Source of the DNA: a candidate division KSB1 bacterium
GTDB lineage: Bacteria > Zhuqueibacterota > JdFR-76 > DREG01
NCBI GenBank assembly: GCA_022566355.1
Contig: JADFJB010000037.1
Span: 1 to 36,120 of the forward strand
Length of the DNA stretch: 36,120 nt
Reading direction: 5' to 3'
The notes under the pieces were generated by a model. That model searched no databases, was not told where the DNA came from, and worked only from the letters and a program-made list of their open reading frames with translations. Position numbers and translations under genes: made by a program. Shown piece after piece: positions 253-6,267 of this stretch (position 1 is the stretch's first letter; every line of letters begins with the position of its first letter).

Positions 253-2670
253 TTATTCTACTACCGGATAACTCCCTGGCTCCATAATAACCAGTGGTTT
301 ACCCCGATGTTTATTCAATAGTTTAATAAACGTTATCACCGGATCCATCTCTGCTTCTATCGCATATGGCAGAGACGGCAAACCAAGATCGATCAACCCC
401 TTATATTTTGGGATTTCAACGATTTCATATTCATCTTCTTCTGTTAAACCGGCTTTTTGCTTGGCGATTTCAATAGCTGCTAATAATCCACCGATCTCGT
501 CGACCAGTCCAATTTCTTTGCCATCTAATCCTGAATAAAAATGGCCTTCTGCTATTTTCTTTACTTCATCGACAGACATACCTCGGCCGTCAGCCACCTT
601 TGTCACAAATCTTTGGTAGAGACCTTTCATTATGGATTCCATTACTTTGCGTTCTTCCGGATCTAGATTCCTGACCGGAACTGTTCCGAAATATGGTAAA
701 TCAATCCCGCGCCAAAGATCTGCATGTTCCCCTCTTTTAACAATATCAGCAGTCATGCCGATTTTTTTAGAGAATCCTGCATCGTAGAGCCAGCCCCCGA
801 TCACGCCGATCGAGCCGGTGACTGTATTGGGCGCTGCGAGGATCATATCTCCGTACATGCTGATCCAATAACCACCCGATCCGGCAACCTGGCCCTGGCT
901 GACGATTACAGGCTTAGACTTGCTGAATTCTCTAAGCGCTTCGGCCACAACATCACTAGCCATGCCATCACCGCCAGGAGAATCTACACGAAAGACAACT
1001 GCCTTGATGTCTTTGTGAATAGCAAGCCGGCGAAATACTTTGTCGAGCCATCTTGCGCGAATACCACTATCCATTGCACATTCACCAAGCCCATACACAA
1101 TCGCAATCTTAGGCAGCTCACCCCACTGTTCGGTTTGGAGAGAATTTGTAAAAAGATCTCTTCTTTGCAACCTTCCTAATTTGCTGCCATGCATTTCTTC
1201 TATGAGTTCCTCTAATTCGGACCAGCGCCCAACCCGATCAACCAACCCCGCTTCTTTCGCCATATCTGCGGTTAAGTACACTTTTTCATTGACCAGAGTA
1301 TCAAATTGACCACCAGATATATTTCTTGAACGACTAACATCAGAACGAACCAATTCATACCAATCATCGATGTAATCTTGCCTTTGTCGTCTATCCGCAT
1401 CGGACATCTGCTCGCGGCTTAAAATTTCCACAGCTGACTTATACTCGAAAAATCGCCATTCATCAAAGGCAAGACCTAATTTTTCCAGGGTGCCTTTTAA
1501 GAACGTTCGGGACATGGAAAACCCCGGCAGCAATAAACTTCCTTCGGGATCCATCACAACTTGGTCTGCAATACTTGCAAGATGATAGGAACTCATACCG
1601 GCATTATCGATAAAGACAATAACCCTTTTGTCTGACTTCTGTGCTGATTTAAGCGCTTCCCTAATTTCCCAGGCATGTTCCGGAAGAATACGCATCCCTG
1701 AAAGACTAAGAGCAATGACATTCACACGAGGATCGTTTTTACTAGCCTCAATGTCCTTCAATAATGAAAACAAGGGAAGTGTATTTTGGTCGAACAGTTG
1801 ATATTTGTGGTACGCGATTCGTCCTTTCATATTAAATGACATATATTTGCGGTTCTTATCCATCAAGATCGGAAAGAGACTTGGCAACATGCCGCCACTT
1901 CGAATTGAATATGTGTTAGAATTAAAGTTTTGGTTAGTGTCATAGCGTGATTGTGAAGCCATACCTGCTCGGCCAAAGTTAACCGAAAATCCCAGGGAAA
2001 AAGATTTGTTGTCGAAATACCGGCCAACCAGAAACATCCCTTTTGAAATAGCAAGTGCTGCCCCTGTACTATACTTCAAATCTTTGATCTTCTGCCCCTT
2101 TTGTAGAGCGGCATCAGAAAAAATTGTCAAAAAAGAGCTGCCAAACGGCCTTAATCCAATATCAACAATGCCTTCCTTATCTTTACTTTGCAAAGAAAAA
2201 TTTCCGACAAACCCCATCGACAAATATTTGTTTGGGCGAAAAAGCCAACCTGTTGTGATTAATTTATCTCTTCTGATCGATGAACTACTGTTTGACCAGC
2301 CATAACTTAAACCAAACGCAGCCCTCTGGTTACCTTCTGCAATCGAAACCTTAAAGTCTGTAATTGATTGTTGGCCAAATTCTTGTTTTACTGCTGCAAA
2401 TCCAATATTCTTTGCAGCCAAGAACAATCCCCAATCTTTGAATGAAGACAAATTAGTGCCATCGGTCGACCAATCAAAACGAGATTCAAACCTGGGTATT
2501 ATGGCGAGATTAGCCGGATTTGTAAAGCCCAGTAACCCATAACCAAAGCTACCGGGAGAAGTCAACAAGAAACTGTTTCGTTGATAGTATCCAGGGAGTG
2601 ATTGGCCGGCAAGAATATTATTATTTAGAAAAATTGTTGCAGTGAGTATTAAAAAGTTAAATCGCCTCAT
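253..2670 (-). CDS. sppA: SppA-type signal peptide peptidase with a beta-rich N-terminal domain
   Basis: Membrane-associated serine protease of the S49 family, which degrades cleaved signal peptides in the cell envelope. The ATG at 2670 is preferred over the upstream GTG at 2688 because it begins a typical signal peptide (MRRFNFLILTATIF, then a polar stretch ending near Ala-Gly). The product is 805 aa. Residues ~25-280 are glycine- and aromatic-rich with alternating hydrophobics and an F-T-N-P-A-N-L motif, resembling outer-membrane beta-barrel proteins. Residues ~310-500 and ~515-770 are the two tandem SppA halves of the 67-kDa type. The catalytic Lys is K411 in E-Y-K-S-A-V and the nucleophile is S598 in V-A-G-S-G-G-Y-W. 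E. coli SppA is about 618 aa and lacks the N-terminal domain. It follows nlpC after 98 nt and is followed by a strong terminator. Confidence 0.88.
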   Translation of the reverse strand: MRRFNFLILTATIFLNNNILAGQSLPGYYQRNSFLLTSPGSFGYGLLGFTNPANLAIIPRFESRFDWSTDGTNLSSFKDWGLFLAAKNIGFAAVKQEFGQQSITDFKVSIAEGNQRAAFGLSYGWSNSSSSIRRDKLITTGWLFRPNKYLSMGFVGNFSLQSKDKEGIVDIGLRPFGSSFLTIFSDAALQKGQKIKDLKYSTGAALAISKGMFLVGRYFDNKSFSLGFSVNFGRAGMASQSRYDTNQNFNSNTYSIRSGGMLPSLFPILMDKNRKYMSFNMKGRIAYHKYQLFDQNTLPLFSLLKDIEASKNDPRVNVIALSLSGMRILPEHAWEIREALKSAQKSDKRVIVFIDNAGMSSYHLASIADQVVMDPEGSLLLPGFSMSRTFLKGTLEKLGLAFDEWRFFEYKSAVEILSREQMSDADRRQRQDYIDDWYELVRSDVSRSRNISGGQFDTLVNEKVYLTADMAKEAGLVDRVGRWSELEELIEEMHGSKLGRLQRRDLFTNSLQTEQWGELPKIAIVYGLGECAMDSGIRARWLDKVFRRLAIHKDIKAVVFRVDSPGGDGMASDVVAEALREFSKSKPVIVSQGQVAGSGGYWISMYGDMILAAPNTVTGSIGVIGGWLYDAGFSKKIGMTADIVKRGEHADLWRGIDLPYFGTVPVRNLDPEERKVMESIMKGLYQRFVTKVADGRGMSVDEVKKIAEGHFYSGLDGKEIGLVDEIGGLLAAIEIAKQKAGLTEEDEYEIVEIPKYKGLIDLGLPSLPYAIEAEMDPVITFIKLLNKHRGKPLVIMEPGSYPVVE

Positions 2671-2768
2671 AAATTCACCATAGTACACATTTAACAGATT
2701 TATTATGAGAGGTGATGGTTAGTTTAGTTCGAAATATTGTGATTGTATTTTATTGAGAAAACTAATTC

Positions 2769-3326
2769 TTACTCCACTGTAATTCGTCTGGCTTCGACAT
2801 AACGGCTGTTGTAATAAGGCTCATTCAACCCGGAAATGATTACGCCTTTTGTAACGCTGGCATGAACAAACTGGTTGGTATCAAGATAAATGCCAACATG
2901 GGAGGTTCCCTTTTCTTCTATGTTTTTGAAGAATACTAAATCGCCAAACTGTAATTGATCCCGAACAACACGATGCCCGGTTTGCACCATTTCTATAACT
3001 TTTCTAGGTAGAGGATATGCAACAGCATTTTTATAGACAAACTGAACAAATCCGGAACAATCCATTTCTTGTTCAGTAGAGCCGCCAAAGCGATAAGGAA
3101 CACCCAGCAAATTTTCGATCTCGGCCATCATCTTTTCTCTGTCGATCTGAACTGGAAAACTATCATTTTTTTCAACTAATTTGGGTTGTGCAACTTCCTT
3201 ACTTTTGTCTGGATTACTCGCTTTTTCTCCCTTTTTTGTTACATATATGGGCTTAGGTTTAAGGCCAGAGCATCCAATAAGGGAACATAAAATTAAAACC
3301 AAAGAGATAGTATTTAAACGATTCAT
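2769..3326 (-). CDS. NlpC/P60 family peptidoglycan endopeptidase lipoprotein
   Basis: Predicted cell-wall cysteine peptidase of 185 aa that would cut peptide stems of peptidoglycan. The N terminus is a lipoprotein signal with lipobox L-I-G-C (Cys19). A Lys-rich linker (residues 22-60) precedes the NlpC/P60 domain (~64-183). The catalytic Cys is C90 in M-D-C-S-G-F, the catalytic His is H143 in S-H-V-G-I-Y, and H155 in F-V-H-A-S is the third polar residue. All three are present, so the enzyme should be active. The ATG overlaps the upstream larA-like stop by four bases (ATGA), indicating translational coupling. Size and layout resemble Spr/NlpC lipoproteins, but orthology is not claimed. Confidence 0.92.
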   Translation of the reverse strand: MNRLNTISLVLILCSLIGCSGLKPKPIYVTKKGEKASNPDKSKEVAQPKLVEKNDSFPVQIDREKMMAEIENLLGVPYRFGGSTEQEMDCSGFVQFVYKNAVAYPLPRKVIEMVQTGHRVVRDQLQFGDLVFFKNIEEKGTSHVGIYLDTNQFVHASVTKGVIISGLNEPYYNSRYVEARRITVE

Positions 3327-4600
3327 TGAATCTTCGGTAAAAGTACAGATGCGTTCGGAATAATATATACTTTTTTTGTTTCGGTGTTGGAAGAAAAAAC
3401 CTGCTCAAAAGCTTCTTGAATATTGCTGGTTGGAATAAACCCTATTTTTTTTGCGTCTGCTTCAGAGATTTCACTGAAGAGATAAACGTTGTAATTATCC
3501 AATTTTTGTTTGAGTGAAATAGCTATATCGGCATTCATTTTTAAATTACCGGTTATTATCCCATTCTGATTATTGTTTTCAAACCACGAAAGGAAATCAT
3601 AGTTCCCCAATCCTTCCCTACATTCAGATAAAATGATTAAATCACCATTTGGTTTTAAAGCACGCACCGCAAAATGGATCGATTGATATGCCTGAATTAA
3701 ATTTATATCGTTCGGCCAACCACCAGTGCTGGCAATGACAACATCTGCCAATTCTGGAATCGCTAATACATTGTTCTGGTTTATTTTAAAGCAAGCCTTT
3801 TGAAAACTGCTGTTCATATTTCCACAGAAAGCATCAATCAAATTCTGGTTTTCACCAAACACCAGGTTAATCGAAAAATCAACAGGAACAGACTTAACCG
3901 CTTCTACAATATCCTCATAAACCGGATTCTGGTGTAGATTTCCGGGTTCACATGCAGGATGCAAAGATGAATTTTGAGGCATTAATGCTAATTGCTGATT
4001 TTGCCAAATTGTATTCAAAGTTGCAAGTCCGGGAATTATCATTTTTGGCCCACCATCAAAGCCGGAAACATTATGATGAGTGACCGAATTAATAGTGATA
4101 ATTTTATCATGCCTTTTCACTAACGGATTTATCACAACATGTGTGCCACGAGAAGTATTGCCTAATTTTTCCACAACAGCATCCTGGCAATTATGCTCAA
4201 TGACTTTGAACCTGTTATAAATATCGAAACCTAATATTTTTATTTTTTCTTCTTCTGTCATCCGTGGATAACTTCCATTTGCAAATAAAATAGTAATACA
4301 CTCATCCTCTATGTTTTTCTGTTGTAAAATTTCCAAAATTTTTGAAAAAACCAAATCCAGCTTTGCAAACTGTGTTTTATGAGGGACAATAATTAAGATG
4401 CGTTGTTTAGAAGCTAGCAGATCAATTAATCCAGGTGAACCAATTGGGTTTCTCAGGCGAATGTCTAAAATATCTTGCTCTTTAATCTGAAGTGAATGGT
4501 TAGGTAAGGTTAAAACATCAACACTTAAAGAATCAGGAAGAGCAAAATCAATTGTTTCAGACCCGTATTTCAACTCAAATTTTGCGAGTGTTTCAGTCAT
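3323..4600 (-). CDS. LarA-family (lactate racemase-like, DUF2088) protein, divergent
   Basis: A 425-aa cytoplasmic protein of the nickel-pincer racemase family. Family marks are the G-x-x-P-R-M-T-E-E-E segment (109-118), the H-H-N-V-S-G-F-D-G-G-P-K-M-I-I-P-G block (175-191) containing the equivalent of the cofactor-binding Lys184 (K186 here), and G-G-W-P-x-D-x-N-L-x-Q (293-303). Several substrate and catalytic residues of characterised LarA appear changed: D-x-T-R-P reads H-K-T-Q-F (74-78), G-x-H-R reads G-S-Y-P (109-112), and Q-x-x-K reads Q-A-Y-Q (303-306). No larB, larC or larE cofactor gene is nearby. It is the first gene after the ribosomal terminator, has no clear Shine-Dalgarno, and overlaps nlpC by four bases. 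The substrate is unknown. Confidence 0.8.
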   Translation of the reverse strand: MTETLAKFELKYGSETIDFALPDSLSVDVLTLPNHSLQIKEQDILDIRLRNPIGSPGLIDLLASKQRILIIVPHKTQFAKLDLVFSKILEILQQKNIEDECITILFANGSYPRMTEEEKIKILGFDIYNRFKVIEHNCQDAVVEKLGNTSRGTHVVINPLVKRHDKIITINSVTHHNVSGFDGGPKMIIPGLATLNTIWQNQQLALMPQNSSLHPACEPGNLHQNPVYEDIVEAVKSVPVDFSINLVFGENQNLIDAFCGNMNSSFQKACFKINQNNVLAIPELADVVIASTGGWPNDINLIQAYQSIHFAVRALKPNGDLIILSECREGLGNYDFLSWFENNNQNGIITGNLKMNADIAISLKQKLDNYNVYLFSEISEADAKKIGFIPTSNIQEAFEQVFSSNTETKKVYIIPNASVLLPKIQ

Positions 4601-5280: not shown

Positions 5281-6267
5281 TTAAGAAACATCCTCTTTTA
5301 AGTATTTATCAACATCCATGCCGAAATGCAATCCTAAATTGTCTAACACTTTTCCGAGTTCATTCAGGGATTTTCTGCCAAAATTGCGAAATTTCAGCAT
5401 TTCTTGTTCATCTCTTCGCACTAAATCCGAAATATTGTCAATGTTAGCAGCCTTTAAACAATTGCTGGCACGAACAGATAATTCCAACTCATCAACACTC
5501 ATTTTTAGTAATTTTTTAATACGGAGTGCATCTTCATCAACTTCAACAACCTGTTCCTCATCCGGCTCAACTTCGTAATTAATAAATAACTCAATATGAT
5601 CCTTTAAGATCTTGCCAGCATAGGTTAATGCATCATCAGGAGTTAAACTTCCATCAGTAGTAACTTCCAGGATTAACTTTTCATAATCCGCTCGTTGCCC
5701 GACTCGTGTTTCTTCAACTCGATAGGCAACATTTATCACAGGGCTGTAAATTGAATCGATTGGAATGATTCCAATTGGTTGATCTGGCATTCGATTTTCT
5801 TCCGCGGGAACATACCCTCGACCACGGCTGATTTTCAGTTCAATTTCAAAGTCAGCTTCATTATTCAAAGTTGCTATATGAACATCTGGATTTAGAACTT
5901 CAAAATCAGCTGTTGCTTCGCCAATATCAGCTGCCTTAAATTCGCCTTTGCCTTTTAATTTGATTGTAACTTTGTCAGGCTTTTTAGCGATCAGTTTGAT
6001 CCTAACTTTCTTCAGATTGAGAATCATCTCGGACATATCCTCAGTAACACCTAGGATTGTTGTAAATTCATGTACTACACCGTTTATACGTAGCGTTGTG
6101 ATTGCTGCCCCAGGTAATGAAGACAACAATACTCTCCGTAACGAATTACCGATAGTAACCCCGAACCCTCGCTCTAACGGTTGAACAATAAATTTACCAA
6201 AATTATCTGTATAAGATGCTTCATCAAGCTCGATGCGCTCTGGCATCTGTAAGTTTAAAACGCTCAT
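5281..6267 (-). CDS. rpoA: DNA-directed RNA polymerase subunit alpha
   Basis: The 328-aa alpha subunit dimerises to scaffold beta and beta-prime. The N-terminal domain (~1-230) carries G-N-S-L-R-R-V-L-L-S-S (40-50). An acidic linker (232-247) leads to the C-terminal domain (~255-318). R266 and N269 in V-R-A-S-N-C correspond to E. coli R265 and N268, which contact UP-element DNA, so that function is probably kept. A GAGG motif lies 6 nt upstream of the ATG. It sits between rpsD and rplQ as in the standard alpha operon. Confidence 0.98.
   Translation of the reverse strand: MSVLNLQMPERIELDEASYTDNFGKFIVQPLERGFGVTIGNSLRRVLLSSLPGAAITTLRINGVVHEFTTILGVTEDMSEMILNLKKVRIKLIAKKPDKVTIKLKGKGEFKAADIGEATADFEVLNPDVHIATLNNEADFEIELKISRGRGYVPAEENRMPDQPIGIIPIDSIYSPVINVAYRVEETRVGQRADYEKLILEVTTDGSLTPDDALTYAGKILKDHIELFINYEVEPDEEQVVEVDEDALRIKKLLKMSVDELELSVRASNCLKAANIDNISDLVRRDEQEMLKFRNFGRKSLNELGKVLDNLGLHFGMDVDKYLKEDVS

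Follow-up and report, generated by a model that had tools for sequence, protein, structure and literature searches.

LarA and its homologues

In annotations, homologues of the lactate racemase LarA go by the name of nickel-dependent racemases. The LarA/LarAH superfamily comprises 2-hydroxyacid racemases and epimerases that depend on the nickel-pincer nucleotide (NPN). In the numbering of the L. plantarum LarA, which is used here for all LarA positions, NPN is bound by R75, K184 and H200, and the residues described as catalytic are D72, H108, H174 and K298 (PMC7583248). The ribose of the cofactor is contacted by Asp, and its phosphate as well as the substrate carboxylate by Arg (PMC12611868); in the Isosphaera enzyme, the carboxylate is bound by R73, H107, H173, Q295 and K298 (PMC11851776). 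Departures from this arrangement are on record. The single-histidine homologues LarA_Bw and LarA_Sp (PDB 9q3j and 9q3k) lack H174 but keep H108 and the nickel ligand, and the LarAH groups 12, 13 and 16, which are thought not to use NPN, are described as devoid of the residues conserved for catalysis and NPN binding (Desguin et al. 2020, PMC7583248); in general terms, then, LarA-like groups without NPN residues have already been reported. Among the papers searched, none combined 'nickel-pincer nucleotide' and 'pseudoenzyme'.

The window analyzed here, a stretch of 36,120 nucleotides from the genome of a candidate division KSB1 bacterium, encodes a protein that shares with the LarA superfamily the full-length two-domain homology, the fold, the linking lysine and one catalytic histidine, but scores far under the equivalog cut-offs of LarAH10 and LarAH6 and has D72, R75, H108, H200 and K298 replaced. 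Its resemblance to LarA_Bw and LarA_Sp consists in the LarA fold and in the departure from the two-histidine mechanism, which is, however, of the reverse kind: the single-histidine class has Asn174 and keeps H108, H200 and K184, whereas in the window protein H174 is present, and H108 and the nickel ligand H200 are lost, so that it falls outside this class. The comparison with groups 12, 13 and 16 is by description only; those are whole groups within a gene-context study (PMC7583248), whereas the window protein represents one lineage in a mostly intact clade.

A LarA-superfamily protein in a conserved locus

The gene (3323..4600, minus strand) encodes a protein of 425 amino acids, P0001, with the Lar_N domain at residues 12-207 and the LarA_C domain at residues 284-417, and has no internal stops over its 425 codons. 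Both Pfam models score above their cut-offs (Lar_N, 152.8 bits against 23.3; LarA_C, 46.5 against 25). Among the solved structures, the nearest relatives by sequence are the malate racemase Mar2 (3.6e-53) and lactate racemases. Among the NCBIfam models, for which the window protein was the sole member of its clade scored, the nearest are LarAH10 (314.3 bits, cut-off 540) and the LarAH6 malate racemase (302.3, cut-off 500), and the protein is also below the curated cut-offs for LarA (225.5, cut-off 460), LarAH5 (254.3, cut-off 462) and LarAH14/15/16 (43.6, cut-off 740).

The assignment to the LarA family, already made in a sequence-only reading, is borne out by the AlphaFold model, a LarA fold predicted confidently over the whole length (mean pLDDT 92.9). 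The model aligns with the lactate racemase 8ezf over 409 residues at 2.2 A (VIA-align, Z 50.3), and the query-normalized TM scores to lactate racemase chains are 0.85-0.90. Residues 341-360, near the substrate-reading region of LarA, have pLDDT values of 58 and 76 (two ten-residue blocks), compared with 94 in the same stretch of the intact orthologue L057. With both domains and the full-length LarA fold present, the window protein belongs by descent to the LarA superfamily, but it lacks most of the residues expected of an NPN-dependent racemase.

Upstream of the gene lie rplQ (ribosomal protein L17; 4741..5238, minus strand) and rpoA (5281..6267, minus strand), identified by domain search and synteny and both retained as neighbors in relatives from the same order. 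Downstream, the start of a gene for an NlpC/P60 family protein (2769..3326, minus strand), with a lipoprotein-like N-terminus and a lipobox recognized by eye, shares 4 bases with the end of the LarA-like gene, an overlap that is identical in the related genome G004. Next follows a gene for an SppA-like (S49) peptidase (253..2688, minus strand; domain search), a candidate only as part of the unit. In the clade to which the window protein belongs, 11 of 24 loci have an NlpC/P60 gene no more than 300 bases downstream of the LarA-like gene and in the same orientation, and in a twelfth locus the distance is 496 bases. The pairing is seen with both intact and degenerate LarA-like proteins, which suggests that the locus has an old connection with turnover of the envelope or of peptides rather than with the use of lactate. 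Other common neighbors are genes for an M24 peptidase, the rRNA methylase RlmD and glycosyltransferases. Direct contact between the two proteins was considered and is thought unlikely: the NlpC/P60 protein has the appearance of an exported lipoprotein, and no signal peptide was recognized by eye in its LarA-like neighbor.

Loss of active-site residues

In the alignment with the L. plantarum LarA, the seven core positions D72, R75, H108, H174, K184, H200 and K298 are H-Q-Y-H-K-Q-Q in the window protein. The D72-x-T-R75 element, which provides the ribose and the phosphate/carboxylate contacts, is replaced by H74-K-T-Q77 (4370..4381, minus strand; Q77 encoded by CAG), the catalytic H108 by Y111 (4268..4270, minus strand; TAT) and the nickel ligand H200 by Q202 (3995..3997, minus strand), all three losses being evident from the alignment, the invariant columns and the codons. 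Alignment and codons likewise show that Q295-x-x-K298 has become Q303-A-Y305-Q306 (3683..3694, minus strand; Q306 encoded by CAA), in which the glutamine is kept, and K298 and the histidine preceding it are lost, and that the loop H175-H176-N-V-S-G-F-D-G-G-P-K186 (4043..4078, minus strand; K186 encoded by AAA) keeps H174 (as H176) and K184 (as K186), with Y/F at 175-176, A177 and G180 in LarA numbering replaced. In window-protein numbering, the Tyr, Phe and His that the 25 closest intact relatives have at 177, 178 and 305 are N, V and Y. The catalytic set H108, H174 and K298 is thus reduced to H174, and the NPN-binding set together with the ribose contact D72 to K184. The five replaced core positions are now occupied by uncharged or weakly basic polar residues, and the pocket would be left without its fixed charges.

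The sequence-only reading, with residues mapped by eye, had noted the preservation of K186 and of the surrounding block and the replacement of Arg75, His108 and Lys298 by Gln77, Tyr111 and Gln306; the alignment agrees on all of these, and no such residues occur at shifted positions. It had also reported the loss of a D-x-T-R-P motif, which holds for D72 and R75 but not for the proline, a residue that the intact relatives in the clade lack as well. Two losses had escaped it, the cofactor ribose contact D72 (H74) and the nickel ligand H200 (Q202), and with these added to the three noted residues, the case for active-site loss becomes stronger.

The replacements are unusual and are not random noise. 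Among 115 aligned rows, H-Q-Y-H-K-Q-Q is found in the window protein only, and the canonical D-R-H-H-K-H-K in 109, LarA and Mar2 included, a count that is biased because 80 of the 115 rows were fetched with patterns favoring an intact HYFAG motif. A scan of contigs for close relatives with the window substitutions, with the window protein as the only query, yielded 26 pattern matches, none of them a relative, and in a search of seven genomes from the same order, no orthologue was found to share the losses. The nearest orthologue is 45% identical to the window protein.

Probable vertical inheritance of the locus

Three further genomes of the order to which the window belongs (G004, G005 and G006) encode orthologues in which none of the seven core residues is replaced. 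Gene names in these loci were read by eye and from similarity clusters; on this reading, G004 (contig L057) and G005 show the order rpsD-rpoA-rplQ-larAH-NlpC/P60, matching the window, and in G006, where the contig begins 333 bases upstream of larAH, the visible order is larAH-NlpC/P60 only. In a tree of the quick kind, built with only two of the GntE-like rows and with no row shorter than 350 amino acids, the window protein is the sister of the G004 protein (SH-aLRT 99) and belongs to a group of four from its own order (support 97) inside a 38-row clade. As the sequence-only reading had called for clustering among LarA homologues, it can be added that the protein groups with the intact homologues of its order and not with LarA. 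Because the syntenic orthologues of the same order keep every core residue, the loss is assigned to the window lineage: most simply, the intact pocket would be ancestral at this locus and would have been lost on the window's branch.

In G002, a genome of the same family, the LarA-like gene has given way to a 1.1-kb segment (L244:4666-5803) that has no long ORF and in which repeats were seen by eye; a remnant of LarA was sought between rplQ and nlpC, and none was detectable. Given this absence from the syntenic place, the gene appears to be dispensable in G002. The search of G001 (77% complete) gave no LarA-type match.

Pocket and scaffold

The losses are concentrated in the pocket. From 30 loci, L032, L035 and L036 (K298R) and L037 (degenerate) were set aside, which left the window protein (L008) and 25 relatives for comparison; these 25 are invariant at 43 columns. 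The window protein has lost 9 of the 13 active-site columns versus 4 of the 30 others (Fisher p = 0.0006), or 5 of 8 versus 4 of 30 when the count is limited to the eight columns that strictly concern the cofactor or catalysis (p = 0.01); two of the four losses outside the active site fall in the H-H-x-x-x-G-F-x-G-G loop. In leave-one-out controls with the 25 intact rows, active-site losses number 0 in 23 rows and 1 in two. At the 30 columns outside the active site, LarA and Mar2, both active enzymes, have 6 and 4 differences, respectively, so the scaffold of the window protein is no more eroded than that of working enzymes.

The overall rate of change is unremarkable, too. The ratio of the G000 (window genome) branch to the G004 branch, a rough measure obtained from single-outgroup distances, is 1.68-1.76 for larAH, 1.85 for rpoA, 1.42 for rpsD, 1.41 for rplQ and 0.9-1.46 for nlpC; relative to the sister, the larAH branch does not exceed that of rpoA, and it exceeds the rpsD and rplQ branches by little. 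Overall, the gene does not appear to be accelerated relative to its ribosomal neighbors, and the contrast between pocket and scaffold, together with the branch ratios, would favor retention of the fold over uniform decay.

Cofactor synthesis genes

The sequence-only reading had found none of the cofactor genes larB, larC and larE nearby. This holds for the window contig (C37), where all three had zero matches, and for larB and larE in the genome as a whole (213 contigs, 98.5% complete), where the searches returned only a PurE-sized match and sub-cut-off matches, respectively, but a larC scoring over the cut-off is present on contig C83 (L137:76-1559). This gene sits 378 bp from the contig end; larB and larE are likely absent from the genome, although they could lie past that end. 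The lone larC adjoins a gene for a BFD-type [2Fe-2S] protein at the end of this 38.9% GC contig. Its composition (GC 53.1%, GC3 60.4%) compares with a GC of 37.5% in C83 beyond base 2600 and a GC3 of 29-42% in three other C83 genes, and it may have been acquired. Origin from a contaminating contig is ruled out by the presence on C83 of cysS, gltX, ispD, ispF, queA, ruvA, ruvB and ruvC (named by eye) and by a composition that fits the genome.

Across the phylum, the presence of LarA homologues and of cofactor genes is poorly matched. A larC over the cut-off without larB and larE is also found in G024, G035, G036 and G057, and as a partial match in G052. Of the genomes that are at least 90% complete and encode an intact LarAH with all NPN-binding residues, 24 of 42 have no larB, larE or larC over the cut-off, the five-contig G049 among them; in these, either NPN is imported or shared, or there is another route of synthesis. 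The literature consulted on this point mentions only the reverse case. Three genomes (G032, G045 and G054) possess larB, larE and larC, and the sole LarA homologue detected in each is degenerate, so NPN may serve another protein there. Loss of the pocket through missing NPN synthesis was considered as a phylum-wide explanation and is opposed by both of these observations.

Other degenerate homologues

The 59 genomes of the phylum that were searched (G000-G058) contain 107 LarA-type loci. Besides the window protein, degenerate homologues occur in the families f12 and f16 and in G049. Those of f12 and f16 form one branch of nine members (L037, L157, L159, L160, L180, L190, L192, L193 and L205; support 99), although the placement of L205 is unsure because of long branches. 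The members belong to the same phylum-wide clade as the window protein, have likewise lost most pocket residues and partly have an NlpC/P60 neighbor. They differ in that K184 is gone and D72 is kept in five of the nine; scaffold changes are larger in L192, L193 and L205 (9-13 of the 30 columns). The window protein lies outside this branch, and most simply, the pocket would have been erased at least two times, independently, in the clade. The persistence of the nine-member clade in two families suggests that cofactor-less versions can last long. The G049 locus (L206) encodes a very divergent LarA-like protein on a very long branch, with a 373-amino-acid frame and the core APPHSYE.

Possible function

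Of the two options that the sequence-only reading had offered, a non-racemase is favored by the loss of the contacts to the ribose, phosphate and nickel of the cofactor, of one of the two catalytic histidines and of the lysine that binds the substrate carboxylate. The other option, a different substrate, is disfavored: the characterized LarA homologues with other substrates, as described in the reports, keep these residues (PMC7583248, PMC11770544). The window protein is probably a retained LarA-fold pseudoenzyme with a cofactor-independent role rather than a racemase that has taken on a new substrate; the findings fit a pseudoenzyme or an NPN-independent protein kept for a role other than racemization. 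The starting point would be a LarA homologue passed down vertically within the rplQ-larAH-nlpC/P60 locus. The window lineage would then have lost the residues that hold NPN (D72, R75 and H200) and those for proton-coupled hydride transfer (H108 and K298), and with all five gone, the altered protein could hardly bind the cofactor or racemize 2-hydroxyacids. Selection would have kept the two-domain fold for a cofactor-independent cytoplasmic role, for example, ligand binding in the remodeled, charge-neutralized cleft, or holding a partner. Several points count against a pseudoenzyme: the absence of the gene at the G002 locus, the larC in the genome, the failure to find a close relative with the substitutions, against which selection could be gauged by dN/dS, and the retention of both K184 and H174, which a cofactor-free protein need not keep. 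A wider reading, possible but doubtful, is that the LarA scaffold was turned, on two or more occasions within a single phylum and each time at this inherited locus, into a protein with a new function independent of nickel and NPN, possibly a sensor or a new catalyst that employs the kept histidine and lysine, operon-linked to peptidoglycan turnover through NlpC/P60.

Neutral decay, whereby the NPN pathway was lost in the family and the gene is on its way out, the pocket having changed first by chance, appears unlikely. It would account for larB and larE going undetected in G000, for the gene having gone from its syntenic place in G002 and for the failure to find a match in the incomplete G001, but decay would strike both classes of columns alike, and all 425 codons are still open, the start and the 4-base coupling to nlpC are intact, and there is no acceleration relative to the neighboring genes. 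If the frame were kept merely for the coupled translation of nlpC, the scaffold residues would not be kept thereby. That the protein is a working NPN enzyme acting on another substrate, or carrying out a half-reaction, as has been proposed for the single-histidine class, is improbable: K184, H174 and Q295 are indeed retained, and single-histidine homologues are on record, but members of that class still have H108, the nickel ligand, the linking lysine and the ribose Asp, and replace R75 by Lys only (PMC12611868), whereas the window protein has D72, R75, H108 and H200 replaced, and larB and larE were not found in its genome. An artefact of sequencing, assembly or alignment can be practically dismissed despite the fragmentation of the assembly, given about ten separate pocket substitutions in an otherwise regular open frame, the preserved flanking anchors (H174, K184 and Q295), the synteny and the confident fold prediction.

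Implications

The window protein, together with the second, independent clade of degenerate homologues, suggests that the LarA fold can outlive its cofactor. For this reason, a match to LarA should not lead to a racemase call before D72, R75, H108 and H200 have been checked. Because the altered gene occupies the same place as the intact orthologues of its sister lineages, the locus would offer a clean natural comparison for a nickel-free role of the LarA fold.
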